DNA of 46,427 bases from a virus: IMG/VR virus record IMGVR_UViG_3300013307_000024, positions 1 to 46,427 of that record. One strand, given 5' to 3'. Positions 1,859-41,601 of the stretch are shown one piece after another (within the stretch, counting starts at the first letter, position 1; each line of letters begins with the position of its first letter). The translations under genes and the position numbers were made by a program. The notes beneath the pieces were generated by a model. The model ran no database searches. It worked only from the letters and a program-made list of their open reading frames with translations, and was not told where the DNA came from.

Positions 1859-1895
1859 CTGTCCTTTTCCCCTCCACCTATTCCTTCCATTTTAG
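1859..1895 (+). promoter_or_regulatory. Late promoter, CTGTCCTTTT class (site 1)
   Basis: CTGTCCTTTT (1859-1868) is followed by a C/T-rich 19-bp spacer and CATTTTAG (1888-1895), a -7 box with two departures from TAnnTTTG. ATG 1900 is 4 nt beyond it. The spacing is identical to the other six sites, although this box is the weakest. Confidence 0.65.
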
Positions 1896-1899
1896 TGGA

Positions 1900-2067
1900 A
1901 TGATTCCAATAATCTACCAAGGCAGAATTGTATTTTACTGGTATGACTTATCCCGAATACCGGCAGTGAACAGCTACATTGTTTGGTATAATAACGCCTA
2001 TCGCGTGTCCGAACGCATCGTGAACGGTTCATCCCTTAAGCTGGTTATAACGGCCTGTCAGCCTTAA
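1900..2067 (+). CDS. Small hypothetical protein, 55 aa, leaderless start
   Basis: ATG 1900 to TAA 2065-2067 encodes 55 residues rich in aromatic and beta-branched residues (YQGRIVFYWYDLSRIPAVNS, then YIVWYNNAYRVSERIV). The start lies 4 nt past promoter site 1, as at four other late units, which supports it strongly despite its short length. The next late promoter begins right after its stop. I do not recognise the family; a small virion or head-assembly protein is plausible from position beside the portal. Confidence 0.7.
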   Translation: MIPIIYQGRIVFYWYDLSRIPAVNSYIVWYNNAYRVSERIVNGSSLKLVITACQP

Positions 2068-2073
2068 AAATAC

Positions 2074-2110
2074 CTGTCCTTTTCTTCCCCCTCCCCCAAA
2101 TCTATGTTTG
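2074..2110 (+). promoter_or_regulatory. Late promoter, CTGTCCTTTT class (site 2)
   Basis: CTGTCCTTTT (2074-2083), a 19-bp C-rich spacer and a perfect TATGTTTG box (2103-2110). ATG 2115 begins 4 nt later, which predicts a leaderless mRNA for the portal operon. Confidence 0.85.
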
Positions 2111-2114
2111 CAAC

Positions 2115-2363
2115 ATGGATTTAAAATCAGCATTAGAAATTCTTGATTCACACCAGTGGTGCAGTCTCCGGCTCCTTACAGCCAATGTGGCTAAGGGCAC
2201 CGGTGGCGAAGTGCTTGAGCTTCCAAAATGCCGCCAGCGTGCAGGCGTATCTGAAGGCCAGCACGCGCAATTCACCCGCAACGTGCAGCTCGCAAACAGC
2301 CAGCGCGTCATTACCATTCACCCGATTCTCATCACCCACATAAACAACACCGCAATCGTATGA
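2115..2363 (+). CDS. Hypothetical 82-aa protein upstream of portal
   Basis: This is the first gene of the portal operon. ATG 2115 lies 4 nt past the -7 box and the stop overlaps the portal start in ATGA (2360-2363), so translation is probably coupled. The N-terminus (MDLKSALEILDS) is helical; the rest is mixed and slightly basic. Frames on both strands within this region are shadows. The function is unknown; position suggests a head-assembly accessory. Confidence 0.75.
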   Translation: MDLKSALEILDSHQWCSLRLLTANVAKGTGGEVLELPKCRQRAGVSEGQHAQFTRNVQLANSQRVITIHPILITHINNTAIV

Positions 2364-3805
2364 GTATCGTAATGGCCGGCCCCGTTGCTTATCTGCCAGA
2401 AAGTGAAGCTGCAGTATTTTTTTCCAAGCCTAGCGCAAGCGCCGGCACAGCTAATAATTACCAGGGTACGGTCGCGCCCATCAGGAAAATGGAAAACAAA
2501 TTGAATATCGCCTTTTGGGGCGAAGACAATCGCTTTCCGCAAAACATCGCAACGCAAATGGCCTGGTGTGGTATCGGAAAAGAGGCGCTCAACTGGAAAG
2601 CCGAAATGCTCTACGGAAATGGAATTGTTCCAGGGAAAATAACCGGCGTTGAAGATGATGGTACAGAAATTTTTGCTCCGCTCGACAGGGCAAAAAATAA
2701 AGCGATTTATTCTTTCATAGAAAAGAGCCTTCACAACCGGTTCTGGCTTGAATACTTCCAGGATTGGGTTTGGTTTGGAAACTGTTTTCCTGAATTAATC
2801 TTAAGTAAAGACGCCAAAAAGATTACCGGCTTCGTTCACCAGGAATCGTGCGATGCACGCTTCACACAGATGAATGCTACTGGCCGGATGGAATATGTTT
2901 ATCTGACAAAATTATGGGGCGCTGATAAAGATCAGTACGCACAGTTTGATCCAACAAAAGCTATCCGCGGTGTCATGAACACCAGCGGCAATCCTGACCT
3001 GATTGAAGATAAATTTCTAAATAAGGTTGATTGCATCGATATGTACAACCCGCTGAAAAGCCTCACTGAAATCGGAGACAAGCTTTTGCAAGCCCGTGGA
3101 AAAAATGCTTTTAAATCCGCCATTTTTCCTACTAATTATCCCTCCCCAAACAAGACATATTACCAAGTGCCGGCATGGGATGGCGCCCGCCTCGCAGGAT
3201 GGGCTGAAATTGCCGCTAAAATCCCGGCCCTTATGAAAGCGCTCTACGAAAAAGCGTTCAGAATCCGATATCATATCCAGGTGCCTGATACATTTTTCGT
3301 TGATAAATATGAAGACTGGGACAAAAAGGACGATAATCAAAAGTTGCAGGCCCGTAAAGATCTCCTGGACGAAATGTCAAAAAATCTTTCCGGGAGCGAA
3401 AACGCTTATAAATCATTTATCACTTTTTATAAGATCGGTGGCCAGGATCACAAAGAATACGGCAACCTGAAAATTACTGAAGTTCCGGACACCAGCAAAC
3501 TGGATAAGGAATTTATCACGCAGTCCGCCGCAGATATACAACTGGTTTCAGCAATGGGAATAGATCCTACACTTTTCAGTGCAGGCACCATCGGCACCGG
3601 CCAACAACGCTCCGGAGGGAGTGATAAGCGTGAGGCTTTCTTAATCTATTGCGCACGCCTCTTTCTTCAACGCCAGGTAGCGCTTGAACCAATGTACCTG
3701 GTACGTGATTACAATGAATGGGGCGATGATATTGTTTTTCGCTTTAGAGATATAGTACTTACAACTCTTGACACCGGTAAAGGAACAGAAAAGAAATTAT
3801 CATGA
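2360..3805 (+). CDS. Phage portal protein
   Basis: The 481-aa length fits a portal, the dodecameric ring at the capsid vertex through which DNA is packaged. Portal-like features are the WGEDNRFPQNIATQ start of the core (about residue 53), KAEMLYGNGI (about 80), the WLEYFQDWVWFGNCFPE segment (about 130) and the late GTGQQRSGGSDKREAFLIY stretch (pieces, about 412-430) that resembles the clip/stem region of Bacteroidota portals. It overlaps both neighbours by 4 bp (ATGA), so the three genes are coupled. The identification rests on family resemblance, length and context; the capsid protease and capsid genes lie far away at 37-39 kb. Confidence 0.85.
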   Translation: MSIVMAGPVAYLPESEAAVFFSKPSASAGTANNYQGTVAPIRKMENKLNIAFWGEDNRFPQNIATQMAWCGIGKEALNWKAEMLYGNGIVPGKITGVEDDGTEIFAPLDRAKNKAIYSFIEKSLHNRFWLEYFQDWVWFGNCFPELILSKDAKKITGFVHQESCDARFTQMNATGRMEYVYLTKLWGADKDQYAQFDPTKAIRGVMNTSGNPDLIEDKFLNKVDCIDMYNPLKSLTEIGDKLLQARGKNAFKSAIFPTNYPSPNKTYYQVPAWDGARLAGWAEIAAKIPALMKALYEKAFRIRYHIQVPDTFFVDKYEDWDKKDDNQKLQARKDLLDEMSKNLSGSENAYKSFITFYKIGGQDHKEYGNLKITEVPDTSKLDKEFITQSAADIQLVSAMGIDPTLFSAGTIGTGQQRSGGSDKREAFLIYCARLFLQRQVALEPMYLVRDYNEWGDDIVFRFRDIVLTTLDTGKGTEKKLS

Positions 3806-4785: not shown

Positions 4786-6804
4786 TTGCCCGACACTTTC
4801 AACATATTCGGTACCAAAGCAAACGATCTCACCGCGCTCGCCGGCTCAATCCCGGATACGCAGCTCGTGATTGTTCCGGATCCGGTTACAGGCAAATTGC
4901 TGCGTAGCACCTTTGGACAAATAAAAGCTGATGTCATCCTTGCCTTTGGCAGCCTCTCCTACCTTGACCAAATTATTGAAGTGCCGCAGGTGGCCAATCT
5001 TCCCCAGCCAGGTGAAGTAAAAAAAATCTACGTCATCACCGGTGCAGGCCCTGACCAGAACAAGCAATTCCGTTGGGGTGGCTCTATCTATGTAGAATTC
5101 CCCCAAGGTAGCGGCGATGTGGCCAGCGAAGCAATTATAAGAGGCAATGCAGATGCAAACCTGCAGGCGCAAATTGATGCAGAAATCACGAACAGGCAAA
5201 ATGCTGATGCCGGGCTGCAAACAAACATTACAAATGAAGCAACCGCGCGCAGCAATGCAGATACTCTTTTATCGCAGCAAATTGCTTCAGAAGCAAACAC
5301 ACGCGCTAATAATGACAGTGTTCTTTCCGGGCTTATAAATTCAGAAGGCGTTACGCGTCTGAATGCTGATAATGTACTCAGCGCCCGGATTGATCAAAAG
5401 CTGAATATTTCCGATTACAACCCCAATTTTAAAGGCAAATACACAACCTTAGCCGCTTTGCAAACTGCGCTTCCTACCGCCATTGCAGGCAATTATGCGC
5501 AGGTAGATGCGGGCGAAGGCAGTAACGTAATTAACTATAACTGGGATGATGAAGAAGGTTGGGTAGTAGGCTCGGCCGTTGGCCCGTCAATCGCCTCTAC
5601 TGATGATCTTACCGAAGGAAGCACAAATTTATACTTCACAGCCGCGCGCGTGTTAGCTGCTATTAGCGGCATAGCCAATAGAATATCCATTTCGGCCGGT
5701 GTAATTGACATCGCCTCCACTTATGTAGGCCAGAACTCAATTACAACACTCGGTATTATCGGCACCGGTACATGGCAGGGCACCGCAATCGCTTCCGGGT
5801 ATGGCGGCACAGGCTTTTCTTCTTATGCAAAAGGAGATTTAATTTACGCCAGTGCAGCAAACATATTATCAAAATTAGCAGCCGGTACAGATGGTTATGT
5901 ATTAACTCTGGCATCTGGCGTGCCCACATGGGCGGCAGCGAGTGGTGGAACTTCTTTGCCATCTCAAACAGGTAATGCAGGAAAATTATTAACCACAGAT
6001 GGAACCAATCTAAGCTGGGGAACTGCTATTCCGGGAATTTGGAGTGTAAGCGGCACCAGCCTTTATTATGACGCAGGTGATGTTGGTATAATTAATAATA
6101 TAGCAGCAACGTCCGGCGTTCCCCAAAATTCTCCAAATTTATATCTAGGAGGTAGTTCTTGGGTATCATCTGGTAGCCCGGCCGCTAGTAAAATTATTAC
6201 GTGGAAAATATACGCAAAAGGTTATTCATCATCAGCGCAAAATTCTTCATTAGAATTCTCTCCAACGATCGACGGAGTTACTTATCCTACCCCGTTTAGT
6301 ATTGGGTATAGCGGCATTATTACTTTCAACACTTTGAGTGGCAATGCAGTCAATGCGTCGACATTTAACTCAACTTATGTGTTAATTAATAATAAGGTAG
6401 AACAAAAATGGAGTTATACAAACGGCTTTGGAGATTCATTTGCCTTCGCTTACACTGCTGCAATTAATAGAACAACAGGTACAGGTATATTTAGAGGATT
6501 CTATTTTAATCCGATTTTAACTTCATTAACAGGTGTAACATTGGTCGCATTTCAAAACACTGCGGGAGATTGCCTTTTCGGCACCACTTCCGGAAGCGTA
6601 GGAATTGGCGCCACCACTACAATTGATCCTAGCGCAATTTTCCAAGTAGCATCAACTACAAAAGGTTGTCTATTCTCGCGCATGAGCACCTCGGACGCAT
6701 CGTCAATCGCAAGCAAAGCTGAATCATTATTCATGTATGATACAACTTTGAAAAAATATAAATTCTGGAACGGCTCTGCTTTTGAAGTTATCAGCTCTTC
6801 CTAA
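4786..6804 (+). CDS. Tail fibre / receptor-binding protein
   Basis: The 672-aa protein is modular in the way of trimeric fibres. After an N-terminal domain (residues 1-115) comes a coiled-coil of about five imperfect repeats of the type NADxxLQxxI-x-E-xxxRxNAD (about 118-205). Next are fibre shaft motifs (TTLAALQTALPTAIAGNYAQ; LTEGSTNLYFTAARV; GTWQGTAIASGYGGTG), and a C-terminal domain ending in SEAFEV-like FWNGSAFEVISSS. The start is TTG 4786, because no in-frame ATG lies near. It should bind the host surface. The C-terminal half from about 6030 is visibly more AT-rich, which suggests exchange of the receptor-binding tip. Confidence 0.85.
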   Translation: MPDTFNIFGTKANDLTALAGSIPDTQLVIVPDPVTGKLLRSTFGQIKADVILAFGSLSYLDQIIEVPQVANLPQPGEVKKIYVITGAGPDQNKQFRWGGSIYVEFPQGSGDVASEAIIRGNADANLQAQIDAEITNRQNADAGLQTNITNEATARSNADTLLSQQIASEANTRANNDSVLSGLINSEGVTRLNADNVLSARIDQKLNISDYNPNFKGKYTTLAALQTALPTAIAGNYAQVDAGEGSNVINYNWDDEEGWVVGSAVGPSIASTDDLTEGSTNLYFTAARVLAAISGIANRISISAGVIDIASTYVGQNSITTLGIIGTGTWQGTAIASGYGGTGFSSYAKGDLIYASAANILSKLAAGTDGYVLTLASGVPTWAAASGGTSLPSQTGNAGKLLTTDGTNLSWGTAIPGIWSVSGTSLYYDAGDVGIINNIAATSGVPQNSPNLYLGGSSWVSSGSPAASKIITWKIYAKGYSSSAQNSSLEFSPTIDGVTYPTPFSIGYSGIITFNTLSGNAVNASTFNSTYVLINNKVEQKWSYTNGFGDSFAFAYTAAINRTTGTGIFRGFYFNPILTSLTGVTLVAFQNTAGDCLFGTTSGSVGIGATTTIDPSAIFQVASTTKGCLFSRMSTSDASSIASKAESLFMYDTTLKKYKFWNGSAFEVISSS

Positions 6805-9327: not shown

Positions 9328-9370
9328 TGTCACACTGAGCCTTGTCGAAGTGCTGAGCTTGTCGAAGTCC
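9328..9370. repeat. Double REP-like repeat
   Basis: Two consecutive partial copies of the CTGAGCnTTGTCGAAG type lie here: CACTGAGCCTTGTCGAAG and GCTGAGCTTGTCGAAG. They are preceded by an AGCTAACAGC stretch that recurs before the muramidase gene. Confidence 0.7.
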
Positions 9371-9385
9371 TGCCAACTCATCACT

Positions 9386-9406
9386 CATAACTCATAACTC
9401 ATAACT
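9386..9406 (+). repeat. Heptamer array CATAACT x3
   Basis: Three perfect tandem CATAACT units, preceded by degenerate CATCACT-like units. They are part of a family of arrays placed between genes. Confidence 0.85.
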
Positions 9407-9414: not shown

Positions 9415-9451
9415 CTGTCCTTTTCGCCACCCTCCCCCCAATTTACTTTCG
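9415..9451 (+). promoter_or_regulatory. Late promoter, CTGTCCTTTT class (site 3), lysis operon
   Basis: CTGTCCTTTT (9415-9424), a 19-bp spacer with a C run and TACTTTCG (9444-9451), one base from TAnnTTTG. It precedes the lysis genes. Here the first start codon (9484) is 32 nt downstream, so this transcript would have a short leader. Confidence 0.8.
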
Positions 9452-9812: not shown

Positions 9813-10253
9813 ATGAAACCAATTTTCTTCCTTTTATGCATCGCTTTCTTTATGTGCCCGCCTTTACAGACAGGCAACGCACAAAGCCAGGAATTTAGCC
9901 CAGCCAAGGGTGTCACCCTGAGCTTGTCGAAGGGCGACAATCCTAAACTCTCAACGCATCAACCCTCAGCCGATTCCCTGACCTCTCAAATAAAGGCCAA
10001 CCTTGATACCGTTGCCAGGCTATTGAAGGCCCGGGATAAAAAGCAAATCGTAATCAGGAAAAAAGTTTACCACAAAACCATAAAAGACACTGTCTACATC
10101 GACACCTGCATCGATAAAGAGCCGGTCATTATTACCATTCCCGTCCCTGATACAAGCCACGCAATTCCCGAACCAGTGCAGAAAAAAAAGTGGCTTCAAA
10201 AACTATTTCATAAAAAGAAATCCACCAACAAAAAATCGCCTCATTTTTTCTAA
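9813..10253 (+). CDS. Exported protein, putative o-spanin-like partner
   Basis: The 146-aa protein has a signal peptide (MKPIFFLLCIAFFMCPPLQT, cleavage near GNAQS; the cysteines at residues 9 and 15 do not form a clear lipobox). A Pro-rich stretch and a very basic C-terminus (VQKKKWLQKLFHKKKSTNKK) follow. It starts 2 bp after the putative i-spanin gene, so the two form a likely pair. Residues about 33-42 (VTLSLSKGD) are encoded by an in-frame REP copy (9911-9937), which shows a repeat inserted into the gene without breaking the frame. Its stop codon joins a heptamer array. Confidence 0.7.
   Translation: MKPIFFLLCIAFFMCPPLQTGNAQSQEFSPAKGVTLSLSKGDNPKLSTHQPSADSLTSQIKANLDTVARLLKARDKKQIVIRKKVYHKTIKDTVYIDTCIDKEPVIITIPVPDTSHAIPEPVQKKKWLQKLFHKKKSTNKKSPHFF
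9911..9937. repeat. REP-like repeat inside a coding region
   Basis: GTCACCCTGAGCTTGTCGAAGGGCGAC-type sequence (core CCTGAGCTTGTCGAAGGG) lies in frame inside the exported lysis-region protein and encodes VTLSLSKGD. It is the cleanest copy of the REP core in the window. Confidence 0.85.
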
Positions 10254-10255
10254 CT

Positions 10256-10283
10256 CATAATTCATAATTCATAATTCATAACT
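10256..10283 (+). repeat. Heptamer array CATAAYT x4
   Basis: CATAATT three times and CATAACT once, starting 2 nt after the TAA stop of the upstream gene, which is followed by CTCATAATT and so itself looks like part of the array. Confidence 0.85.
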
Positions 10284-10297
10284 CCTAATTAAAAAAC

Positions 10298-10884: not shown

Positions 10885-11451
10885 ATGAAAACCCTAACCA
10901 CTGACCAGATCAAGGCCCTGGCCGCCGCAAACAGCTACGAATACGCAGCTCTTAATGCAGTAGTGCAGGTAGAGAGCTCTGGTCATGGTTTTTCTTCCGT
11001 TACCGGGAAAATTATCATTCAATTTGAACCAACCTGGTTCAAAAGAAAATATGCCGACTGGCAAAAATTCCAGGCTAATCACACCTGGCAAAATAACGGC
11101 GTAGATGATCAGACAGCCGAATGGCGGGCATTCAATGATGCCTTTTCCCTAAGCGCCTCTGCAGCCATGCAGGCCACCAGTATCGGATTGATGCAAGTCA
11201 TGGGATTTCATTACCAAATTCTCGGCTTTAAATCAGTCGGTGAAATGTGGGACCATGCAAAAGAAAGTGAAGCCAACCAGCTCGATATCGGTATTAGATT
11301 CATAAAATCAAATCCCAAACTCGACCAGGCGTTGAAAGAAAAAAACTGGCGCCTGTTCGCTTACTATTACAACGGCTCACAGTACGAAAAATTTAATTAT
11401 CACAATAGGCTTGCAAGCGCCTACAAACACTCTCAAATTAGCCCGTTTTAA
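10885..11451 (+). CDS. Endolysin, N-acetylmuramidase (DUF3380 family)
   Basis: The 188-aa protein matches the N-acetylmuramidase (DUF3380, PF11860) family in length and motifs: VVQVESSGHGF with the likely catalytic Glu (about residue 31), the IIIQFEPTWFKRKY segment, SIGLMQVMGFHY in the middle, and WRLFAYYYNGSQY near the end. It cuts the peptidoglycan glycan chain to release virions. There is no signal peptide, so export must depend on a holin. It is followed by a strong terminator that closes the lysis unit. Confidence 0.92.
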   Translation: MKTLTTDQIKALAAANSYEYAALNAVVQVESSGHGFSSVTGKIIIQFEPTWFKRKYADWQKFQANHTWQNNGVDDQTAEWRAFNDAFSLSASAAMQATSIGLMQVMGFHYQILGFKSVGEMWDHAKESEANQLDIGIRFIKSNPKLDQALKEKNWRLFAYYYNGSQYEKFNYHNRLASAYKHSQISPF

Positions 11452-11517: not shown

Positions 11518-11522
11518 GCATT

Positions 11523-11550
11523 CATAACTCATAACTCATAATTCATAACT
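11523..11550 (+). repeat. Heptamer array CATAAYT x4
   Basis: CATAACT, CATAACT, CATAATT, CATAACT between the lysis terminator and the tail-operon promoter. Confidence 0.85.
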
Positions 11551-11557: not shown

Positions 11558-11594
11558 CTGTCCTTTTCTCACCCCTCCCGCCGCTCTAATATTG
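11558..11594 (+). promoter_or_regulatory. Late promoter, CTGTCCTTTT class (site 4), tail operon
   Basis: CTGTCCTTTT (11558-11567), a 19-bp C-rich spacer and TAATATTG (11587-11594). GTG 11599 follows 4 nt later, predicting a leaderless mRNA that starts with a GTG codon. Confidence 0.85.
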
Positions 11595-12424: not shown

Positions 12425-12958
12425 ATGGTAAACGATTATATAAATTATTTCCGCTCACTCGCTATCTCACACAAGGACCTGAAACATGATCCGCTGAGCG
12501 ACACCGGTGACAGTCCTTCCGGAGAGAAACATTTCACCCGGATAAGCATTGAAGAAGTGGTAAAAGGTATGCAGAGCGCTGTTTTCTTCCCATGCATGAC
12601 GCTTGAACTATACGAAAACCACACCAGCGCTGAGAGCGCTGTAAATGTAAAATCGCAGCCCTCAGGCGCATTCATGATCATAGATCATCCGGGTGATGAT
12701 TCTTTTGCTGCTCAGCAGGCATCTTATGCAAAATCTGAACAGATCATTTACGAATTGCTGCAGCGAATTTACCAGGACCACAAACCCGGTTCTAATGCAT
12801 GCAGTCGCCCTTTCAAATCCTTCAGTTTTGACAAGCTGGAGATAACACCGGTAGGCCCAGTTTTCCAGGGCGAATTCGGGTACCGTGTAGAATTCAATTT
12901 TGAATTGCAAAACCAAATCAACATCACTAATCCTCCGGCGGCCGGAACATTCACATAA
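12425..12958 (+). CDS. Putative tail protein, 177 aa
   Basis: It begins 1 nt after the previous stop (TAAAATG). It is a soluble alpha/beta protein with SAVFFPCMTLELYENHTSAE in the middle and a C-terminal beta-rich part (GEFGYRVEFNFELQNQINI) that recalls tail-terminator or tail-tube accessory proteins. The stop codon TAA lies in the first unit of a heptamer array. The exact role is unknown. Confidence 0.75.
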   Translation: MVNDYINYFRSLAISHKDLKHDPLSDTGDSPSGEKHFTRISIEEVVKGMQSAVFFPCMTLELYENHTSAESAVNVKSQPSGAFMIIDHPGDDSFAAQQASYAKSEQIIYELLQRIYQDHKPGSNACSRPFKSFSFDKLEITPVGPVFQGEFGYRVEFNFELQNQINITNPPAAGTFT

Positions 12959-12994
12959 TTCATAACTCATAATTCATAATTCATAATTCATAAC
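12954..12994 (+). repeat. Heptamer array CATAAYT x5.9
   Basis: CATAATT, CATAACT, then CATAATT three times and a partial CATAAC. The first unit contains the TAA stop of the gene ending at 12958 and the array ends 1 nt before the next start codon. Confidence 0.9.
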
Positions 12995-12995: not shown

Positions 12996-13445
12996 TTGTC
13001 ACTAAAGCAAACCTTCATCCTGAAATGCCTCAACGAGTACAACTCATCCGTTGTGGAGATGATGCGTTCGCAAATGAATAAGCTGAAGGTGAATGACACC
13101 GGTGAAGGGCTTCAATCCCTGGCTTATAAAGTTTTTCAATCCGGAAACGAAGGCGCTTATTCAAATCTCACATTTAAAGAATATCTCCGCTTTGTCGATA
13201 TGGGTGTCGGCCGTGGCCATCCGCTTGGAAGCATTGATACCGTTGGCGTCGAATTGCAGGCCAGCAAACGCAGAGGATTGAAATATGTAAAAGACAAAAC
13301 TTTCAAACCTAAAAAAATCTATGCAAAAATCGCTTACGGCCGCTTGCCGCACTTAACAGGAAAATTGCTTTACGGCTTCACCGACGAAGCGATTGCAGAA
13401 CTGAAAGCAGAACTGGAAGGCAATCCCCCAATTCATAATTCATAA
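12996..13445 (+). CDS. Putative tail-completion / minor tail protein, 149 aa
   Basis: The start is TTG 12996 right after a heptamer array; no nearby in-frame ATG gives a better N-terminus. The protein is basic, with helices (FILKCLNEYNSSVVEMMRSQ) and a segment with VDMGVGRGHPLGS that resembles HK97-gp10-like proteins, which join head and tail. Its last residues (PPIHNS) and stop codon are encoded by the next heptamer array, so the array has replaced the original gene end. The function is an inference from resemblance and position. Confidence 0.7.
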   Translation: MSLKQTFILKCLNEYNSSVVEMMRSQMNKLKVNDTGEGLQSLAYKVFQSGNEGAYSNLTFKEYLRFVDMGVGRGHPLGSIDTVGVELQASKRRGLKYVKDKTFKPKKIYAKIAYGRLPHLTGKLLYGFTDEAIAELKAELEGNPPIHNS

Positions 13446-13461
13446 CTCATAATTCATAACT
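13434..13461 (+). repeat. Heptamer array CATAAYT x4, overlapping a gene end
   Basis: CATAATT, CATAACT, CATAATT, CATAACT. It encodes the last residues and the stop (13443-13445) of the upstream gene and ends 6 nt before GTG 13468. Confidence 0.9.
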
Positions 13462-13467
13462 CACAAA

Positions 13468-15624
13468 GTGCCTACACTAAATCTCCTCAAATCCCCATAC
13501 GAAATTTCCTTCACCGGCAACCCCATGCCATTCATTTGGCAGGTGGCGCCTTATGGCAACCGCGAGCAAAGCAGTGATATCACAGTCACCGTGCGCGTGC
13601 TGATAGAAAATATTTTCAGTTCCGGAAACTTTGAAGAGGTATATGTACAGAAATTATATCCTGCCGGCGATGGCACCGTGAAGCTTGATGTAGGCTCAAT
13701 AATAAGTCCATACCTGGAATACTATACCCCGCGCACTGACCTCATAAAACCAATAGAGGCGCCCAATCAGCGCAAAAGATACCAGGTACTTACCACCTTT
13801 GATGCACCCGGATTATTTCCTCCAGGGTATTACGATTTGCCACCGATGTATGAAGAGCCGGTTTATTATTTCGCAATCAAAGGAGGCCTGGCAAAAGAGG
13901 CATGGCATTACAAAGAATTTTTTACAAAAATTATCCAGGAAGAAAAACAACCGCTTCTCTTTTCTGCAGCAAAGGAGTTGGTAGATCCTGAGGCGTTGAA
14001 ATTTGTTTTTTGGATGTACCCGGATGATGACAATGCCGCGCAAACGGTTACCTATACCATCTATTGCAGCGATGGCACTACGGTTATCAGAACAAATACC
14101 AATTTGCTGACATCAGGAAAATGGTCGGTGAATTGTGCGCCGGCCGGTTTCAATCAATGCGGCCTTGATGCATGGGTGCCCGCCAATAAATCGGCCGTTA
14201 AATATTCTATCAAAATAAAAACTGCTGCAGGAGCTGTAGTGGATGAATATTTTTTCACCCTCGATAACAGAAATTTCTATGATAAATATTTTCTCCTTTA
14301 CCGTAACAGCATTGGCGGATTAGAAACCGTCAGGCTACTTGGTCAGGTGGACCTGGCAGCCGAGTATGACCGTCAGCAAGCCCGCAGAACGGCCCCGCCT
14401 AATTGGTTCAGCAGCGCAGAGATAACCGACGAAGCCACCGAAGAAACTTTTTCTTATACAGCTGACACCGGATTTATGAGTAAAGAACAATTGCTGAAGC
14501 TTCGCGATTTATTTCTTTCTAAAGAAGTGAATCAATTCACCACTTCCAACTCACTACTGACGCGAGTTGTTATCACTTCCAGCAAAGCAAAATTCTTCTC
14601 CAATAAAGACAACCTGGTATCAACCTCAATAGAATGGCAAAGCGCTGTTATCAATTCATTCTACACGCCTGCAGCATTGATGCCACAATCGCGCACATGC
14701 CCTGCAGTTGAGCAATTCATAGCAGAACAATTGAACAAAAACACCTTGCAATTTATGTGGAGCCTCGAAGATCCCTACCAGGATATTGAAGTGCAGGTAA
14801 TCATTAATGACGTCACCACCATTTATACTTTCAAAGGCAATGCCGGCATGACCCTGCAGAATTTTGATAACCCAATTACCGATAATTCGATTCTAAATAT
14901 CACGCTAAAGGTGCGTACGATTTGTAATCCGGATTCGGTGCCGGTAGAGTATGGACCATTCGCCACGTCTTTCCTTACCATTCAAGGCGATTCATTGCCG
15001 GTGGCCGTGGATGATACATTCCAGGTGCCGATAGGATTTTCCGGCTTGCTCCCGGGAAGCTTGCTGGATAACGACTACGATCCGGATGGCGATCCCATTG
15101 AGGCCGCAGCAAACTGGGGCTTGTTTGGCAATGGTTCCAGCCCGGCCACATTCCAGGTAGACGTTAACGGAAAAGTTATCATCTCCGGCGCGCCGATCGA
15201 TATGACCGGCCGGCAAACATTCGATTACCAGATTCACAACCCCGGCAGTGACCAATATGTCACAGGCCATGTCTTCGTCACATTTGGCAATGGCCCACAG
15301 GCAGTGTTCGCAAAATTCGTAATGCGAAATTTAAAAAACAGTTCCCTTACAACTACCGGTGAAGCGTGGATTGATTATTTCAGTGACCCCGCCTGCACAG
15401 TGCCGGTGAATGTGTCAGCTCTTGGCCTTACCATAAATGCAAAAAGAGAATGGAAAAATAATGGCTCTGTAGAGGAAACGCAAAACTTTACTATTGCGGC
15501 CCAGGGCACCAGGAACTTTGTGTGGAGCGGCACCCTTTCTCAATCAATGTTTGTCGGCACCCCTTGGCTGGTAAATGTGTTCACCGTATTAACAGGCGCC
15601 GGCTATATCCCCGTAAACTCATAA
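13468..15624 (+). CDS. Large tail/baseplate protein with cadherin-like domain
   Basis: The 718-aa protein starts at GTG 13468. Residues 1-480 are beta-rich without a family I recognise (NPMPFIWQVAPYGNREQSSD at the start). At about 510-610 lies a domain starting VAVDDTFQVPIGFSG and containing LLDNDYDPDGDPI, the pattern of cadherin-like/tandem-95 Ig folds with acidic calcium-binding residues. The C-terminal 100 residues are again beta-rich. It lies between tail genes and is probably an exposed tail-tip or baseplate component that touches host surface glycans. The stop TAA belongs to a heptamer array. Confidence 0.78.
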   Translation: MPTLNLLKSPYEISFTGNPMPFIWQVAPYGNREQSSDITVTVRVLIENIFSSGNFEEVYVQKLYPAGDGTVKLDVGSIISPYLEYYTPRTDLIKPIEAPNQRKRYQVLTTFDAPGLFPPGYYDLPPMYEEPVYYFAIKGGLAKEAWHYKEFFTKIIQEEKQPLLFSAAKELVDPEALKFVFWMYPDDDNAAQTVTYTIYCSDGTTVIRTNTNLLTSGKWSVNCAPAGFNQCGLDAWVPANKSAVKYSIKIKTAAGAVVDEYFFTLDNRNFYDKYFLLYRNSIGGLETVRLLGQVDLAAEYDRQQARRTAPPNWFSSAEITDEATEETFSYTADTGFMSKEQLLKLRDLFLSKEVNQFTTSNSLLTRVVITSSKAKFFSNKDNLVSTSIEWQSAVINSFYTPAALMPQSRTCPAVEQFIAEQLNKNTLQFMWSLEDPYQDIEVQVIINDVTTIYTFKGNAGMTLQNFDNPITDNSILNITLKVRTICNPDSVPVEYGPFATSFLTIQGDSLPVAVDDTFQVPIGFSGLLPGSLLDNDYDPDGDPIEAAANWGLFGNGSSPATFQVDVNGKVIISGAPIDMTGRQTFDYQIHNPGSDQYVTGHVFVTFGNGPQAVFAKFVMRNLKNSSLTTTGEAWIDYFSDPACTVPVNVSALGLTINAKREWKNNGSVEETQNFTIAAQGTRNFVWSGTLSQSMFVGTPWLVNVFTVLTGAGYIPVNS

Positions 15625-15640
15625 CTCATAATTCATAATT
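15620..15640 (+). repeat. Heptamer array CATAAYT x3, overlapping a gene end
   Basis: CATAACT, CATAATT, CATAATT. The TAA at 15622-15624 in the first unit is the stop codon of the 718-aa tail protein. Confidence 0.88.
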
Positions 15641-17460: not shown

Positions 17461-17502
17461 GTCAGCCTGAGCTTGTCGAAGTGTAACGAACGTTGTCGAA
17501 GG
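17461..17502. repeat. REP-like repeat between convergent genes
   Basis: It contains GTCAGCCTGAGCTTGTCGAA and a second partial TTGTCGAAGG. It fills the gap where the plus-strand tail operon meets the minus-strand lysogeny genes and may help termination from both sides. Confidence 0.65.
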
Positions 17503-17524: not shown

Positions 17525-18577
17525 TCAACTTATTCCAATCAAATGCAAATACGGTTCTACCTCTTTTTTAAAAACCTCTTCATTCATTACTCTCAATGAA
17601 GATCCTTTCGCCAGCAGATCCGTTATTTTTTCCATCTTAGATGGACCAGCGCCTTTCCCTATCACCACGATATTAGTACGGCCACTTATCGATGTATTCA
17701 CGTCTGCACCCAACTTTTGTAAAAGGTAACATACAGTAGGACGATCCCATTCCTGCAGATCGCCAGTGAACACTACCTTTTTATCGTAGAACGGATTCTC
17801 CGGCGGAGCGCCATCTAGATTTTGGGTAAGAAAATCTGCGCTGATTTCTTTGTATTCGTATGCTTCCTTGTAGCTTTTGCCCTTTGGTTTAGAGGTAGCT
17901 TTTGGCAAATCAGGTGTACTAATTACTTTTTTCTGTTCCGAATCGTAATAGATAATAATATCAGCATCTACACGATCGAAATCAAAGATGTGTGCGATAA
18001 AAGCTCTGTAATCTCCCTGTATTATTTCTCCTACTTCTTCCGTTTGATCTGCCGGCACATGGCCAATCATTCCGGAGCCGGCCATTACCTTTATTGCATT
18101 TGAATCATATTTATTACCAGGATCTCTTTTTAAGGTCACTCTATCATAGATAGCGCATTCGCTCAACCTGTCCTGGTAGGATTTTACATGCAATCCTTTT
18201 ACATCAAAAGTATATTCATCGGGGTATTGCTGCAGGTTCTCTTTTTCCGCCTGGTAAGCAGAGATGTTAAGTTCATTATAAACCTTGCTATACAGAATAA
18301 AACCACCATTCATTTTTGATTGGAAAAGATTTTCTAATTGCTTTGGAATTATAATTCCTTTTTGCCGAAACTGAGTGTAGACCTGCTTTACAATGTCCTT
18401 ATCATGGTTTAAAATAAACCTGGCGACATCTTTAGGATTTGCGCTTTCCGGATTTGGCACCGCCATGTTTTGCTGAATTGTTTTTTGAGGAAGCGTATAA
18501 GATGCTTGGTTGCTTTTATTACCGCTTGCTAAAATCAAAATAATAATGATGGCTACAATTGCTACTGTCATTCCCAT
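17525..18577 (-). CDS. Membrane-anchored HIRAN + BRCT protein
   Basis: The 350-aa protein has an N-terminal membrane anchor (residues 4-18, TVAIVAIIIILILAS) and a linker with an unassigned helical domain (48-105). A HIRAN domain follows (about 126-205: RVTLKRDPGNKYDSNAIKV, then GMIGHVPADQ), then a BRCT domain (about 262-340: KKVVFTGDLQEWDRPTVCYL, then LGADVNTSISGRTNIVVIG). HIRAN domains bind single-stranded 3' DNA ends and BRCT domains bind DNA ends, nicks or protein partners; both usually occur in soluble repair enzymes. Here there is no enzyme domain and the protein is tethered to the membrane. It lies downstream of the repressor on the same strand, so it is probably expressed in lysogens. 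Superinfection exclusion or DNA-end sensing at the membrane is an inference. Confidence 0.88.
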   Translation of the reverse strand: MGMTVAIVAIIIILILASGNKSNQASYTLPQKTIQQNMAVPNPESANPKDVARFILNHDKDIVKQVYTQFRQKGIIIPKQLENLFQSKMNGGFILYSKVYNELNISAYQAEKENLQQYPDEYTFDVKGLHVKSYQDRLSECAIYDRVTLKRDPGNKYDSNAIKVMAGSGMIGHVPADQTEEVGEIIQGDYRAFIAHIFDFDRVDADIIIYYDSEQKKVISTPDLPKATSKPKGKSYKEAYEYKEISADFLTQNLDGAPPENPFYDKKVVFTGDLQEWDRPTVCYLLQKLGADVNTSISGRTNIVVIGKGAGPSKMEKITDLLAKGSSLRVMNEEVFKKEVEPYLHLIGIS

Positions 18578-21342: not shown

Positions 21343-21378
21343 TTTTTCATCATCTATAAAAAATCAAATATGTACACT

Positions 21379-21427
21379 CATAATTCACCACTCATAACTC
21401 ATCACTCATAACTCATCACTCATAACT
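21379..21427 (+). repeat. Heptamer array x7 with CATCACT variants
   Basis: CATAATT, CACCACT, CATAACT, CATCACT, CATAACT, CATCACT, CATAACT. The following CATG contains the start codon ATG 21429 of the next gene, so the array runs into that start. Confidence 0.88.
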
Positions 21428-21428
21428 C

Positions 21429-21993: not shown

Positions 21994-22024
21994 ACGGGGT
22001 TGTTTTTTAATCATAGTGTAAGTG

Positions 22025-22063: not shown

Positions 22064-22081
22064 AAAAAGAATATCAGCGAA

Positions 22082-22300: not shown

Positions 22301-22306
22301 ACAGCA

Positions 22307-31532: not shown

Positions 31533-34500
31533 TCACTGGCTCATGCCGGCAGCTTTCCTGGAATTATCATATTCCTTTTCTTTGTTGCGATACTCTTTAA
31601 TGCTGACAACTGCATGCAACCTGTCTTTTTGATTTTTTACTTCATCAATTAATTCATCCTGCTTTGCTATCAACTGGCGAAGCAAATCATCATTGCTGTT
31701 ATCTTTTACCGGTGATGAATTCATTTGCCTAACGATGCCGCCCTGCTCCATTATCCTGGGCAGGTTAGGATTTAATTGCGCCGGTGGCCGCATGAATGCC
31801 GGCTGAATTACGGCGCCGCCTGCCCAGCTTACGCCCCCATGGATCGAATTTAATTTGCTGGTGATTTGCGCCGGCGTACCGGTAACGGTGTACTGATTGC
31901 CGTCCGTCATGGTATCAGCTTTCATCACAGCTTCGTCTTTTTCAATCTCTACATGAATGCCGCCGTCTCTGTGTTTTTTCCCTTTGCGGAACCAGTTACC
32001 GCGGGCTGCTTTATCGGGCGGCGCTTGCGTGGCGATTGCTGCAACCTGTGCAGCTGTGGTTGCCACTACTATCGCAACCTGTATAGCACGGGAAATTCCA
32101 AACGTATCAAGGTCGCTCATGCCCGGGCGCGCCGCCAATGTGGAAGTAACGGCCAGCGCTCCATTAATAAGCGCGGTAGTAATAGCCAGCGCCTGCTGAC
32201 GTTTGAACGCTTTTAAATCGGCGGCCTCTTTCTTTTTTTGCAATTCTGCATCCGCCTCAGCTACCTTTTTATCATATTGCTTTTGAGAAAGTAATTTTGA
32301 ATCGAGTTGCTTTTTGTAATTATTTTTCTTAGCATCATTGATGGCCTTATCTTTTTGCAATTGACGCTGATCAAGATTGTTCAGCGCGGTAAAAAGATCG
32401 CCGGTCATTTTTAAAGCCGTCTGCGTAAAGAAATCGAGCGCCTGTATTTTTGCATCGATTAATTCCTGGTCTGCGTCTTTAATTGCCAGGTTAAATCTGG
32501 CCCAGATAGCCTTGCCTTCATCCGTTGCATTTACAGAAGCATCATCAAAAGCCTCACCTGCTTTTTTAAGTCTCTCCTTAACCTGAGCAAGCGCCGCATC
32601 TTTATCATCCGTTGCGTTTTGCTTTTTTAAATCAGCGCGCTTCTTAGGCGATGTGGATGGATCCTGAATTTGAGTATCACGGATGCCTCGCCTGGCCTGA
32701 GCTTCTTCCTGCCAGAAAGCTTTGCGCGCCTCCATTTGCTTTCTTTCCGCTTCAGTGATAGCCTCTTCCTGGGCAATGGTGAAAGTTTTTACATCTTCGG
32801 CAGCTTTCTTAACAGTGGACGAATAATCAGCAGCGATTTGTATTCTGTTCTTAATAGCCAGCGCCTGTATTTGCGTGAGTGAATCTTCATACTCATCCTG
32901 GCTTATTTTTCCCTGCGCATAGTCGCGTTCTGTTTGTCGTTTTTTTTCTGCAAAATAATCGTCGGATGCCTTTAATGAATCGGCATATTCATCGCTGCTC
33001 AGTTTACCCTGTTGCTTTTTCTGCAACTCGGCTAATTCGTTATTAAAAGCCTCTACAAGCAGCTTTTCTTCTTCGGTGTAGGTTTTCCTGTCTGTAACGT
33101 TTTTCTTGAAATATTCAAGCGCTTTGGCATGGAGCTCCTGGTATTTTTGCTCCAGTGCAATCAGTTCTTTTTCATCCTGCGATTTGCTTGCGTTGGCTGC
33201 ATCTTCTTTTAATTTTTGAAGTTGTTTATAAAATTCAGCAGCTTCTTTTTTCAGGCGGTCGTATTCTGAATTTTTGGAACCGGATTTTTCTTTTTTGTTA
33301 TCCAACGCATCCAGTTCTTTCTGGTATTTTTCCCGAAGCGCAAGGTTTGCCTGCTGGCCAGCTTTATCTGTTGCGTTTAATTTTTCATAAGCAACTTTGG
33401 AATCTTCTATCAATTTTTCCAAAACTTTACGCCGCGCAGCTACTGATGCAGCATCTATTTGGTCTCCTGGAGCCGGTGGTTTTGAAAGATCGTCAATGGA
33501 CTTCTTAAGCGTAGTGCCGTTTAGTTCATCAATTATGCCTTTAGTGCCTTTTATTTTTGTCTGCAAATCGGCTATCTTTCCATTAAGGCCTGTCAACATT
33601 TTGTCGTAAGCATCCAGCGTTTTTTTAGATGATTCCGGAATCACTGCACCGGCTTTTTTTCTTTCATTTAAGATGTCAAAAAAATCCCCGGCGGCTTTTT
33701 GGAGTCCCGGAAGCTGTTTCTGATAATTTTCTAATTCTTTTTGAAGATCTTTCAAACTGCCTGTCGCTTCATCAATAGCTTTAGCGTTTTTTACTTTCAG
33801 CATTGCCTGCTGCAGGCTGATAAATTCCCGCGCTTTTTCGGTACTTATGCCAATAGCTTTCCCATATTTATCAAATTCGGTTATGGCGACCGGAATTGTT
33901 TGCCCGATCGTTTCAATGGCTTTGTTTAATTCGATTTGTTCTTCTTTATTTAAGGTGGTTTTTTTCGTTAATTCATCTACGCGATCAATGAGGGGAACCA
34001 TGCTTTTTTCCAGGTCAGAAACCTTGCTTGCGGCTTCGCGAAATTTATCTACCGCAGTTGCGCTTTTGCTAAAGATGTCTATTACCTTACTAAAGCCTTC
34101 CACCAGCGTTTTTAAAAATGTTGTAATGCCTGAGCTATACACCAACGCATAAAACTTTTTGCCCAACTTATCAAGCGTGGCGCCGAGTGTCTCATTTTTT
34201 AAAGCGAAGGCCTCGGTTACCGCAGAGGTTCTTTCGATGGATGTACGGCCTAAATCTATGCGGCCTCTTAAGTAATCCGCGTTCTGGCCCATCTTGGAGA
34301 TGGTTTCAATTGTTCGTGTGCCTTCTTCGCCTGCATCTTTCAGCGACGCGGTTACAGCCGCAAATGAATCTTTATTTTTTACCAACCCCTCTGAATATTT
34401 CAGAAGCGCTTCGGTACCGTCAGTTTTAAGAAGGTTAGTAAAATCTTCCACACTCACACCAGCAATTCTTGCAGCCTTGGGAACGTCTGAATTTATGCTG

Positions 34501-35497: not shown

Positions 35498-35534
35498 CAA
35501 AACTGGCGTGAAACCGCGGCCCGTTAAAGGACAG
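35498..35534 (-). promoter_or_regulatory. Late promoter, CTGTCCTTTT class (site 5), tape measure
   Basis: On the minus strand CTGTCCTTTA (35534-35525), a 19-bp spacer and CAGTTTTG (35505-35498). The ATG at 35492 follows 5 nt later. The same spacing as on the plus strand shows that the motif is directional and functional. Confidence 0.85.
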
Positions 35535-35648: not shown

Positions 35649-36155
35649 ATGCTAAAAGGCTACATTGGAATTGAAATCCCCACCAAACGCTACATTGCCG
35701 CTTTCGTAAAAAGCCAGCTTGGCGACCAACCCATCATGAACACGCAACACCTGATAGGGCACAAATTTTTTGACCTGCTTCAGCATCAGACTAATGAAGA
35801 CATGACTGAATTTGCCGGCCAGTACTATGATGTGAAAATGAAGCTTTACGTTAATTATGGAATTTTTTCGAAACGCGGCCAGTACCTGAACCACACGAAC
35901 ATTAAGAACTTCAATATTTACCTGGAGAAAAAAATAAAAGAGAAATTTTATTTTCTCATGGATTTCATGATTGAGATAGTTCCAAATTTTAAATACAACC
36001 TGCCGGCAGTGCGCAAGAAGCTTGGCATCACGGACGATGATTGGGATTATGATTCAATGAAAAAAGATTACTACCGCTATCGCGTACGCAATGGCAAGCC
36101 GCTGTTGAAAGTAAGAAGTGATTATTTTGGCATTAACCAGGACGCCGGCTTTTAG
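35649..36155 (+). CDS. Hypothetical 168-aa protein, possible regulator
   Basis: ATG 35649 (MLKGYIGIEIPTKRYIAAFV) is chosen; an upstream start at 35607 lacks support. The protein is basic with a central helix-rich part and a C-terminal segment (LPAVRKKLGITDDDWDYDSM, then KKDYYRYRVRNGK) that could form a helix-turn-helix. It lies by itself between two late promoters. A late-gene activator would fit its position, but no family match supports this. Confidence 0.65.
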   Translation: MLKGYIGIEIPTKRYIAAFVKSQLGDQPIMNTQHLIGHKFFDLLQHQTNEDMTEFAGQYYDVKMKLYVNYGIFSKRGQYLNHTNIKNFNIYLEKKIKEKFYFLMDFMIEIVPNFKYNLPAVRKKLGITDDDWDYDSMKKDYYRYRVRNGKPLLKVRSDYFGINQDAGF

Positions 36156-36158: not shown

Positions 36159-36429
36159 AGTTATGAGTTAGGAGTGATGAGCGATGAGTTGGCGAAACAT
36201 AATTCATAATTCATAATTCATAACTAATTAAAAAAATAAATATTTCTTCCCGATGTGTCCCCTCCATTTTTTTTTAAGGCAAAAGGTGAAAGGCAGGCAA
36301 AAGGCAAGAGGCAAGAGGCACGAACGAGAGACAAATTCATAACTCATAATCCATAACTCATAATTCATAACTCATAATTCATAACTTATTACTAAAATAA
36401 ATATTTCTTCCCGATGTGTCCCCTCCATT
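36159..36429. repeat. Repeat-rich gap: heptamer arrays and a 36-bp direct repeat
   Basis: An inverted AGTTATGAGTT-type copy (about 36159-36190) faces CATAAYT arrays at 36198-36225 (x4) and 36338-36386 (x7). A 36-bp direct repeat (start AAAATAAATATTTCTTCCCG, end CCCCTCCATT) lies at 36233-36268 and 36394-36429. AAGGCAAGAGGC-type microrepeats lie between (36281-36330). The 307-bp gap 36156-36462 holds no gene apart from these repeats and the promoter box at its end. Confidence 0.85.
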
Positions 36430-36458: not shown

Positions 36459-36462
36459 AAAA

Positions 36463-37028: not shown

Positions 37029-37065
37029 CTGTCCTTTATAAGCCCCTCATTCCCGAGCATTTTTG
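37029..37065 (+). promoter_or_regulatory. Late promoter, CTGTCCTTTT class (site 6), capsid operon
   Basis: CTGTCCTTTA (37029-37038), a 19-bp spacer and CATTTTTG (37058-37065). ATG 37096 is 30 nt further on, so this transcript has a short leader. Confidence 0.8.
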
Positions 37066-40580: not shown

Positions 40581-40598
40581 GTTGCTTATCTTCGTCGC

Positions 40599-40711
40599 GC
40601 GACACTCTCTAAACAAAATGCATGAGCAACCACCTTGTTGGTGGTTGGCATACCGGTGAAAGCCCGGGCTCATGCATTTGAGGGTGTCGCAACCAGACCA
40701 ACCACCTTTTT
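40599..40711 (+). ncRNA. Structured RNA with mutually exclusive pairings (switch candidate)
   Basis: GCGACACTCTC (40599-40609) pairs with GAGGGTGTCGC (40680-40690) over 11 bp with one G-T wobble; after a 6-nt bulge, AAATGCATGAGC pairs with GCTCATGCATTT over 12 bp (40616-40627, 40668-40679). Inside sit a hairpin AACCACC/GGTGGTT (40628-40634, 40640-40646) and a small CCGG stem. GGTGGTTGG (40640-40648) can instead pair with CCAACCACC (40698-40706), followed by TTTTT and ATG 40712. A TATCTTCG box (40587-40594) just upstream could start the RNA at the stem base. Confidence 0.7.
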
Positions 40712-40999
40712 ATGGATAACGAGCAACGCGACGACTCTGAAGACAATGAAGCGGATTTCTCCGGAATCCTGAATAAATTAAAGCTTTACCTGCTCGAATA
40801 CTACGAGCCGGTGCAGGATCCTAAGCAGGCGGATTTTCATTACAGTACCGATGAGATTTGGAAACAACTGCTAAAGCTTTTCCCGAATGAATTGATACTA
40901 CGTCCGGAACTGATAGCGCAGTGGTTGCACTTAGGAGGCTTTACTTTTTATGACTTTGGAGAGTTGAGATTTGAATGGTTGATGAAAAGGAGAAATTAA
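40712..40999 (+). CDS. Hypothetical 95-aa protein under the structured RNA
   Basis: The acidic protein starts immediately after CCAACCACCTTTTT, so the RNA fold upstream probably controls it. The centre (TDEIWKQLLKLFPNELILRP, then LIAQWLHLGGFTFYD) looks helical, perhaps a winged-helix remnant. It overlaps the next gene by 25 bp. Function unknown. Confidence 0.7.
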   Translation: MDNEQRDDSEDNEADFSGILNKLKLYLLEYYEPVQDPKQADFHYSTDEIWKQLLKLFPNELILRPELIAQWLHLGGFTFYDFGELRFEWLMKRRN

Positions 41000-41277
41000 C
41001 TTATAGGTTAACTTTTAAAACAGGAGCTTTATCCTGGCTAAATATTTACATGAAACAATTTCCACGATTTTTTTATAGCAGTCCCAGGAACCAGGATTCA
41101 TCCGGGCCACTCATTTTTCACCTGAATTTTCCCAGGTGTATTTTTTCGTGCGAGCCGTCTATAAAGATTCATACCACCATTGACAAGACTGATCCCGAGC
41201 GCATGCAACGGCTTACTAAAGAAGCGCAGCAATGGTTTGATGAATTTAGGAATCCAAAACCGCAAACGAACAAGTAA
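40975..41277 (+). CDS. Hypothetical 100-aa protein
   Basis: It overlaps the preceding gene by 25 bp. The protein is basic with hydrophobic and Phe/Ser-rich segments (YMKQFPRFFYSSPRNQDSSG) and a C-terminal helix (PERMQRLTKEAQQWFDEFRN). There is no recognised family. Confidence 0.62.
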   Translation: MVDEKEKLTYRLTFKTGALSWLNIYMKQFPRFFYSSPRNQDSSGPLIFHLNFPRCIFSCEPSIKIHTTIDKTDPERMQRLTKEAQQWFDEFRNPKPQTNK

Positions 41278-41289
41278 TTAAGATTTGCT

Positions 41290-41559
41290 ATGGCACACTT
41301 TTTCAATTATGATTTTTGTAAAAATAAACACCAGATTTATGGGCTGGAAGTTAAAAATGAAAAAGGCGAGATTGTTGGCTACAGGCCTTTAGTTCAAAGG
41401 TTTCCAAAACACGGCGGCGTTGTGGAGGTTGTTAGTGAAAGTTTTCCTCAAGTAAAATGGAAGATCTTTTCCTCAGAAAAACTAGCCCGTGATTTTGCAA
41501 TTAAGTTTTTTAATTCTTTAGACACCGTAACTCTTAATACACCTCACGAGTTTAGTTAA
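41290..41559 (+). CDS. Hypothetical 89-aa protein
   Basis: The protein is beta-rich and basic (YGLEVKNEKGEIVGYRPLVQ, then KWKIFSSEKLARDFAIKFFN). It ends 5 bp before late promoter site 7. I do not recognise it. Confidence 0.65.
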   Translation: MAHFFNYDFCKNKHQIYGLEVKNEKGEIVGYRPLVQRFPKHGGVVEVVSESFPQVKWKIFSSEKLARDFAIKFFNSLDTVTLNTPHEFS

Positions 41560-41564
41560 AACGC

Positions 41565-41601
41565 CTGTCCTTTTACAGGCGCACGCCCGGCGGTAACATT
41601 G
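41565..41601 (+). promoter_or_regulatory. Late promoter, CTGTCCTTTT class (site 7), packaging operon
   Basis: CTGTCCTTTT (41565-41574), a 19-bp spacer and TAACATTG (41594-41601). ATG 41606 lies 4 nt later, giving a leaderless mRNA for the terminase operon. CCTGT/ACAGG next to the motif can form a small hairpin. Confidence 0.85.

Follow-up and report, generated by a model that had tools for sequence, protein, structure and literature searches.

The window analysed here (a 46,427-nucleotide stretch, IMG/VR record IMGVR_UViG_3300013307_000024) holds a complete phage of ~46.3 kb, whose sequence strongly supports a single phage-specific promoter class serving the dispersed late genes. In the model that we consider probable, a phage activator, most likely the protein designated P0003, would act with host sigma-A to drive seven late promoters, with leaderless mRNAs from about half of the promoters of this class as a whole, although there are no transcription start site, RNA-seq, footprint or binding data for this. 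The 'late' timing of the genes is itself inferred from gene content, without RNA data.

The seven sites had been listed by a first-pass annotation of this DNA, and all of their positions were borne out, together with the 19-nt gap that follows a 10-mer element:

Late promoter 1, 1859..1895, plus strand: TGTCCTTT at 1860-1867, -7 box CATTTTAG at 1888-1895; 4-nt gap to the ATG at 1900 of a 55-aa ORF.
Late promoter 2, 2074..2110, plus strand: -7 box TATGTTTG at 2103-2110 (perfect); ATG 2115 of an 82-aa pre-portal gene (family c15), with portal next at 2360.
Late promoter 3, 9415..9451, plus strand: -7 box TACTTTCG at 9444-9451; leader of ~28 nt to ATG 9484; lysis region, with N-acetylmuramidase at 10885-11451.
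Late promoter 4, 11558..11594, plus strand: -7 box TAATATTG at 11587-11594; 4-nt gap to GTG 11599 of a tail-region gene (family c6).
Late promoter 5, 35498..35534, minus strand: -7 box CAGTTTTG at 35505-35498; 5-nt gap to ATG 35492 of the tape-measure gene (35492-31533).
Late promoter 6, 37029..37065, plus strand: -7 box CATTTTTG at 37058-37065; leader of ~26 nt to ATG 37096 of the head maturation protease, followed by capsid genes.
Late promoter 7, 41565..41601, plus strand: -7 box TAACATTG at 41594-41601; 4-nt gap to ATG 41606 of a conserved packaging-region gene (c2); terminase large subunit at 43841.

The element is spelled CTGTCCTTTT at five sites and CTGTCCTTTA at the other two (35534 on the minus strand and 37029). 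The annotated 10-mer is present at all seven, but the core that is kept across relatives is the eight-base TGTCCTTT, the leading C being found in only 32 of 95 sites and the fourth T in only 20 of 95. The box at 2103 is perfect, as the annotation held, but that at 1888 is one base off the (T/C) form rather than two.

The window contains seven copies of CTGTCCTTT, against 0.3-0.5 expected under Markov models of order 2-4, and all seven copies of TGTCCTTT have a [TC]AnnTTTG box, matching at least five of the six specified bases, exactly at +28 (20 nt after the element ends). With a genome-wide background rate of 1.4% for the box, the binomial P for 7/7 is 1e-13, or 2e-12 allowing for 17 offsets. 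The gapped search that the annotation recommended gives seven matches to the full pattern in the window with at most one mismatch and none for the reversed control, and a chance origin of the module was rejected on the Markov, reversed-control, offset/permuted-core and binomial tests. In the proposed comparison with shuffled sequence, shuffles still average 1.8 when up to three mismatches are allowed, so that significance depends on the strict core and the fixed spacing.

The module is common to relatives down to ~30% terminase identity, being present in 29 of 31 IMG/VR records, where about 115 sites are found versus three for the reversed pattern. At 77 loci the box lies at +28 from TGTCCTTT, and at essentially no other offset, and permuted cores are without such a box. 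A box accompanies 95 of 113 non-redundant sites, and the consensus over these 95 gives a -7 box of the TAnnTTTG type. Orthologous late genes lie downstream of the sites in relatives, and where the tape-measure gene is inverted, in the window and in G001, the site is inverted too. Relatives without TGTCCTTT retain the geometry whilst their elements have drifted; in laban6-1, 6H and G012 these altered elements stand ahead of the same genes, with a spacing that is identical or almost so. The idea of one late promoter class for dispersed late genes has strong support from 31 related records, from named phages and from the controls. Other phages have TGTCACAA as their element. Megablast gave no match between the late region and any named phage.

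Bacteroidota sigma-A (sigma-ABfr) promoters combine a TTTG -33 element with a TAnnTTTG -7 box. The phage sites have the same box at the same position, all seven in the window meeting the -7 criterion at five or more of six bases, but have TGTCCTTT in place of TTTG. The TTT of the element does coincide with the host -33 TTTG, as had been noted, yet G comes next in just 5 of 105 sites, and the sites fail the -33 criterion. Spacing is rigid in the phage sites, whereas host spacing is variable (PMC7366714), and many phage start codons would lie at +1. Across 119 Bacteroidia genomes the pattern is not enriched (23 matches versus 42 in the control), for which reason a host promoter class was rejected as the source of the module. 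The scarcity of G after TTT, the drift by lineage at fixed spacing and the lack of host enrichment all favour the earlier suggestion that the element is an added activator site or a phage-specific -33.

The distance from -7 box to start codon is 3-5 nt at five of the seven window sites and at 43 of 95 sites overall, with a peak at 4 nt. As the Bacteroidota sigma-A box has been placed at -12 to -5 (PMC9723704), a box followed by N4-ATG puts the ATG at +1, and from this geometry the mRNAs of these sites are inferred to be leaderless; their 5' ends have not been mapped. This abutment of start codons at most window sites and the proposed regulator are additions to the first-pass annotation. The state of the leader is kept gene by gene, with the pre-portal gene c15 (11/11), the packaging gene c2 (10/10) and the tail gene c6 (6/6) leaderless by geometry, and in IMG/VR as a whole the N4-ATG pattern is found in at least 119 stretches, against 7 for a permuted core and 35 for N8-ATG. 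Leaderless mRNAs are rare in the hosts (5.5% and 3.7%). Bacteroidota mRNAs are without Shine-Dalgarno sequences, and leaderless phage mRNAs may suit such hosts.

In the mechanism that we propose, host RNA polymerase, carrying its primary sigma factor, would read the -7 box [TC]AnnTTTG (-12 to -5), whilst TGTCCTTT (-40 to -33) would replace or overlap the host -33 element. A phage-encoded activator, most likely P0003, would bind TGTCCTTT and aid the polymerase in starting, with +1 being the start codon at about half of the promoters. The module, its constant geometry, the genes beside it, its conservation with drift and the start-codon distance are read from the sequence itself; use of sigma-A, late timing, the part of P0003 and leaderless initiation are inferences. 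Made early or in the middle period, P0003 would then turn on the scattered units for portal, lysis, tail, tape measure, capsid and packaging; this timing is proposed because its gene lies outside the TGTC-driven units in the window and in most relatives. The gene and its conserved neighbour are as follows:

P0003, 35649..36155, plus strand: 168 aa, candidate late activator; no TGTC element ahead of the gene.
P0001, 36463..37017, plus strand: 184 aa, conserved neighbour of P0003; tail-tube/neck-like fold.

The P0003 gene lies directly ahead of the late region and its family is present in 31 of 32 records. All 23 viral loci found by a P0003 search have the motif, and 28 of 43 motif-picked records have P0003 versus none of six controls; of the 15 motif-bearing records first scored negative, ten were fetched and an extended HMM found a divergent P0003 in all ten. 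Among near-universal families P0003 alone lies outside the late virion and packaging units, P0001 excepted, and P0001, rejected as a regulator for its predicted tail-tube/neck-like fold, is probably a virion protein. P0003 is most likely the late activator, or at any rate the best candidate, an inference made without RNA or binding data. The phages share ancestry, and co-occurrence alone cannot tell P0003 from other inherited genes. Moreover, G012 has a drifted module yet no detectable P0003, and G028 a divergent P0003 yet no recognisable module.

Searches of Pfam, PHROGs and PDB sequences gave no significant match for P0003. Its AF2 model (pLDDT 86) has the predicted order beta-alpha-alpha-beta-alpha-alpha, with an extra, conserved and helical C-terminal part (KK-x-YYR-x-R). 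Tandem ribbon-helix-helix proteins, such as F-plasmid TraY and regulators of Sulfolobales viruses, share this order but not the extra C-terminal part. The best ribbon-helix-helix match in Foldseek is weak (E 0.06), none is significant in the PDB, and the other matches to the model are weak too, apart from one Leef_1 hypothetical protein. P0003 is accordingly no more than predicted to be ribbon-helix-helix-like, and DNA binding is not established.

Our best model, an activator plus sigma-A, would by analogy work much as MotA of T4 or C of Mu do, with no homology to either. At T4 middle promoters, where MotA and AsiA appropriate sigma at a MotA box (PMC2988021), the host -10 is likewise kept, and a phage element at a constant distance takes the place of the -35, with a phage activator (here only proposed). 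The MotA box, however, lies 12 +/- 1 bp from the -10, centred at -30 (PMC2988021), a spacing not seen here, where 20 nt separate the element from the box, and MotA promoters serve middle genes rather than virion genes. No MotA or AsiA homologues were found among the scanned proteins (not every small ORF was scanned), nor did P0003 match the MotA family in Pfam or PHROG. In Mu, the late promoters Plys, PI, PP and Pmom are activated by C, the product of a middle gene (PMC4461284). Both systems have a small number of dispersed late promoters, serving lysis, head and tail units under one element, with one phage activator (again only proposed here), but the element differs, as does the predicted fold of P0003, and no Mor/C family match was found in 21 P0003-family members.

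Other readers of the element have to be considered. The promoter class may be real and TGTCCTTT be read by a host protein, an alternative sigma factor or activator, with P0003 doing other work; the host-type -7 box, the many ECF sigma factors and regulators that Bacteroidota encode and the unproven DNA binding of P0003 leave room for this, but the lack of enrichment in host-class genomes, and an element that drifts by lineage at constant geometry, which better fits a phage-encoded reader, make it unlikely, if not to be dismissed. Nor do we think it likely that the activator is another early phage protein (LuxR/GerE, another HTH protein or a very divergent missed family). G012, with its module and no detectable P0003, is in keeping with such a protein, as are the LuxR-type genes of many relatives, but the window has no GerE protein and only 13 of 28 records have one, on which ground LuxR/GerE was rejected as the common factor, and P0003 is the sole near-universal family outside the late virion and packaging units besides the tail-tube-like P0001.

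That the phage's own sigma factor or polymerase serves these promoters is very unlikely, for all that the element is strongly unlike the host -33 consensus: the -7 box is that of host sigma-A, no phage polymerase was seen among the scanned proteins, and Sigma70 region 2 is absent from 15 records, which led to rejection of a phage sigma factor, region 4 appearing only below the cut-off and not in the window. We give least credence to a non-promoter role for TGTCCTTT-N20-box, as a conserved element of RNA or DNA acting in translation, packaging or termination. A terminator-like hairpin (stem of at least 8 pairs) does occur in the spacer of some relatives, in 13 of 104 versus 1.7% of shuffled sequences, but none was seen at the window sites, the box, spaced as in a promoter, equals the sigma-A -7 consensus, the sites stand ahead of late-unit start codons, and the start-codon offset agrees with the known transcription start offset.

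P0003 could represent a new activator family, single-chain ribbon-helix-helix proteins that have a helical C-terminal domain and direct the sigma-A polymerase of Bacteroidota to TGTC-type elements. Protein and element would have co-evolved throughout a large group of phages, and the late mRNAs so driven would be leaderless in a manner set for each gene, with the promoter in some relatives nested in the terminator of the preceding unit; towards this fuller picture we lean only slightly. A literature search turned up no description of a class of late promoters or of a late activator in Bacteroidota tailed phages, and the same holds for ribbon-helix-helix late activators and flavophage promoters, many subscription papers being outside the search.

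The module offers a predictive rule (element, spacing, +1 and first late genes) for phages and prophages whose Bacteroidota hosts live in the gut, the mouth, soil or the sea, cultured phages included, and P0003 is one named, testable candidate regulator. The activator-promoter pair could become an inducible tool in Bacteroidota hosts, and the promoters would supply natural leaderless mRNAs for a phylum whose mRNAs have no Shine-Dalgarno. The module also aids host assignment of uncultured phages and the setting of start codons: the position of the minus-strand site makes ATG 35492, and not the upstream GTG, the probable start of the tape-measure protein.

The window is an IMG/VR virus record; its final ~117 bases repeat its start, which marks it as a complete phage genome about 46.3 kb long. 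A window scan finds all seven of the gapped sites claimed by the first-pass annotation, each where it had been placed. The window holds seven copies of CTGTCCTTT, against 0.3–0.5 expected, and a box resembling [TC]AnnTTTG lies exactly at +28 for 7/7 window TGTCCTTT (P = 1e-13). Of the gapped-motif search proposed with that claim, the strict core with rigid spacing holds the signal, while a scan allowing three mismatches is not very specific by itself. Two of these putative late promoters stand in tandem ahead of the portal unit (1859-2115), separated by a small ORF, an arrangement also seen before the portal unit of the related record G014 (about 21875-22328), although the two phages are distant.

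Relatives were gathered with the terminase large subunit (43841-45499) as query, giving 76 IMG/VR loci; gene calls throughout are simple ORF calls. The same module is seen in every group of relatives. The box is present at 95 of 113 non-redundant TGTCCTTT, with at least five of six bases matched at 87; permuted cores, and most offsets other than this one, show the box only at background frequency. Across 31 whole records the sites number about 115, and nearly all of those in any one genome have the same orientation; the reversed pattern gives 3. Chromosomal relatives were found in Sphingobacterium, Pedobacter, Chitinophagaceae, Bacteroides and other Bacteroidota.

Named phages carrying the module
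Polaribacter phage Leef_1
Cellulophaga phage Ingeline_1 (L213)
Bacteroides phage BT-TP2
Porphyromonas phage019a
'Microcystis' phage Mea-Yong924-1 (L211, MZ447863)

The last of these combines the Bacteroidota late-promoter module with a homologue of P0003 (the candidate activator) and a terminase 37% identical to that of the window phage; its assignment to a cyanobacterial host looks doubtful.

The units downstream of the sites are orthologous: pre-portal gene/portal, tail genes c6/c7, tape measure, head protease/capsid and packaging. Where the tape-measure gene is inverted (the window and the related record G001), its promoter is inverted too. At 46 of 105 sites no more than 20 nt separate the TGTC from the stop codon of the gene before it, and the target of any activator is thus likely, judging from this layout, to be the element itself rather than a site far upstream. 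Ingeline_1 has a correctly spaced site at 22912, with an ATG 4 nt past the box, ahead of a gene (22952-23407) other than its P0003 homologue (32734-33315), taken as an additional late gene with no assigned role.

A scan of 119 Bacteroidia genomes gave 23 occurrences of the exact pattern, against 42 for the reversed control; with no excess over control, it follows that the hosts do not use the pattern as a class. Relatives without TGTCCTTT carry drifted versions ahead of the same late genes.

Drifted elements
laban6-1: CATGTCACAA-N20-box, five times (holin, protease, homologue of the packaging-region gene c2, portal operon, tape measure)
6H: CATGTCTTAA-N19-box, four times
G012 (related phage record): CCGTCCTAC-N20, four times
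Dyadobacter prophage: TGTCCCA
Spirosoma prophage: TGTCATT

Measured against 12 shuffles each, laban6-1 and Dyadobacter have best scores clearly above the shuffles, and 6H and G012 exceed theirs by a narrow margin only. Because the geometry stays constant while the recognition sequence changes, the comparison suggests co-evolution with a phage reader.

The candidate reader is P0003.

35649-36155, + strand: P0003, 168 aa, candidate activator

P0003 has no significant match in Pfam, PHROG or PDB sequences. In essentially all genomes a member of its family stands immediately ahead of the first late unit (the copy in record G016, detected in the family search, is absent from the gene calls used for this survey), and the family was detected in 31 of 32 records, the exception being G012, which has the drifted module only. 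With P0003 as query, viral contigs yielded 23 loci, every one from a motif-bearing phage. Conversely, P0003 was found in 28 of 43 records picked by the DNA motif alone and in 0 of 6 picked by a permuted motif; an extended HMM revealed divergent copies in all ten negatives fetched, and homologues in Ingeline_1 and Mea-Yong924-1. The weight of this co-occurrence is limited by the shared ancestry of the phages. The BT-TP2 homologue (5501-5989) is annotated 'transcriptional regulator' in GenBank. No sigma factor was found in the phage records searched, LuxR genes are patchy among relatives, and the neighbouring P0001 has a tail-tube/neck-like fold.

The AlphaFold2 model of P0003 (pLDDT 86) has a beta-alpha-alpha-beta-alpha-alpha arrangement followed by two C-terminal helices, a predicted element order shared with single-chain ribbon-helix-helix proteins. 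In Foldseek only a hypothetical protein of Leef_1 matches significantly; ribbon-helix-helix proteins of archaeal viruses come next, below significance. A C-terminal KK-x-YYR-x-R helix (window about 36048-36090; family alignment A2) is shared by the family even where the remainder is <20% identical, and is possibly a polymerase or DNA contact.

Beyond what is observed of module, spacing, context, conservation, drift and start-codon geometry, a mechanism can only be inferred, late timing included, there being no transcript or binding data. Host sigma-A would read the -7 box, and P0003 would bind the TGTC-type elements at about -40 to -33, standing in for the contact usually made at -33. The proposal shares with T4 MotA middle promoters a retained host -10 and a replaced -35, and with Mu C the dispersal of late promoters, but fails the membership tests for T4 MotA and Mu C.

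Among 95 sites, 43 have a gap of 3–5 nt from box to start codon, and 35 of these form a sharp peak at 4 nt; in a second group the start codon lies about 15–35 nt past the box. The sigma-A box of F. psychrophilum occupies -12 to -5 (PMC9723704), and a 4-nt gap would therefore set +1 on the A of the ATG. Leaderless initiation at late genes is an inference, made without transcript data. In F. psychrophilum 5.5% of mRNAs are leaderless (PMC9723704), and in B. thetaiotaomicron leaders of <10 nt make up 3.7% (PMC7366714). A search of IMG/VR for the module followed by N4-ATG matched at least 119 stretches; N8-ATG in its place matched 35, and a permuted core 7. The leaderless state is predicted for 11/11 copies of the 82-aa pre-portal gene c15, 10/10 of c2, 6/6 of c6, 5/11 of the tape measure and 1/8 of the protease; leader state, so predicted, is kept per gene.

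Predicted leaders at window start codons
1900, 2115, 11599, 41606: 0 nt
35492: 1 nt
37096: 26 nt
9484: 28 nt

In several relatives, mostly of a more distant group (G013, G016, G019, G020, G021, G022, G023 and G027; for example G020:44777-44812), the 20-nt spacer forms an almost perfect hairpin of terminator-like form, and the T tract of that hairpin doubles as the -7 box (TGTCCTTTAAAAGCTCCCTTCGGGGAGCTTTTTTTG). Stems of at least 8 pairs occur at 13 of 104 sites, against 1.7% in shuffles. The promoter in these relatives appears, from sequence, to be nested inside the terminator that closes the unit before it. No such spacer hairpin is present at the window sites.

The window also carries arrays of 7-bp repeats (AACTCAT / TAATTCA), mostly intergenic (36 17-mer matches against 0.1 expected), two of them a short way upstream of the putative late promoters at 9415 and 11558.

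7-bp repeat arrays
9375-9406, 10251-10290, 11522-11550, 12954-12993, 13430-13463
15616-15638, 21375-21430, 36198-36223, 36334-36386

A further dispersed repeat, CCTGAGC(C/T)TGTCGAAGG, of which no copy is expected by chance, is found at 1827-1843 (immediately ahead of promoter 1859), 9335-9372, 9917-9933 and 17466-17482; it resembles a dispersed repeat of Bacteroidota chromosomes. On the minus strand, 17525-18577 encodes a 350-aa phage protein with HIRAN and BRCT domains.
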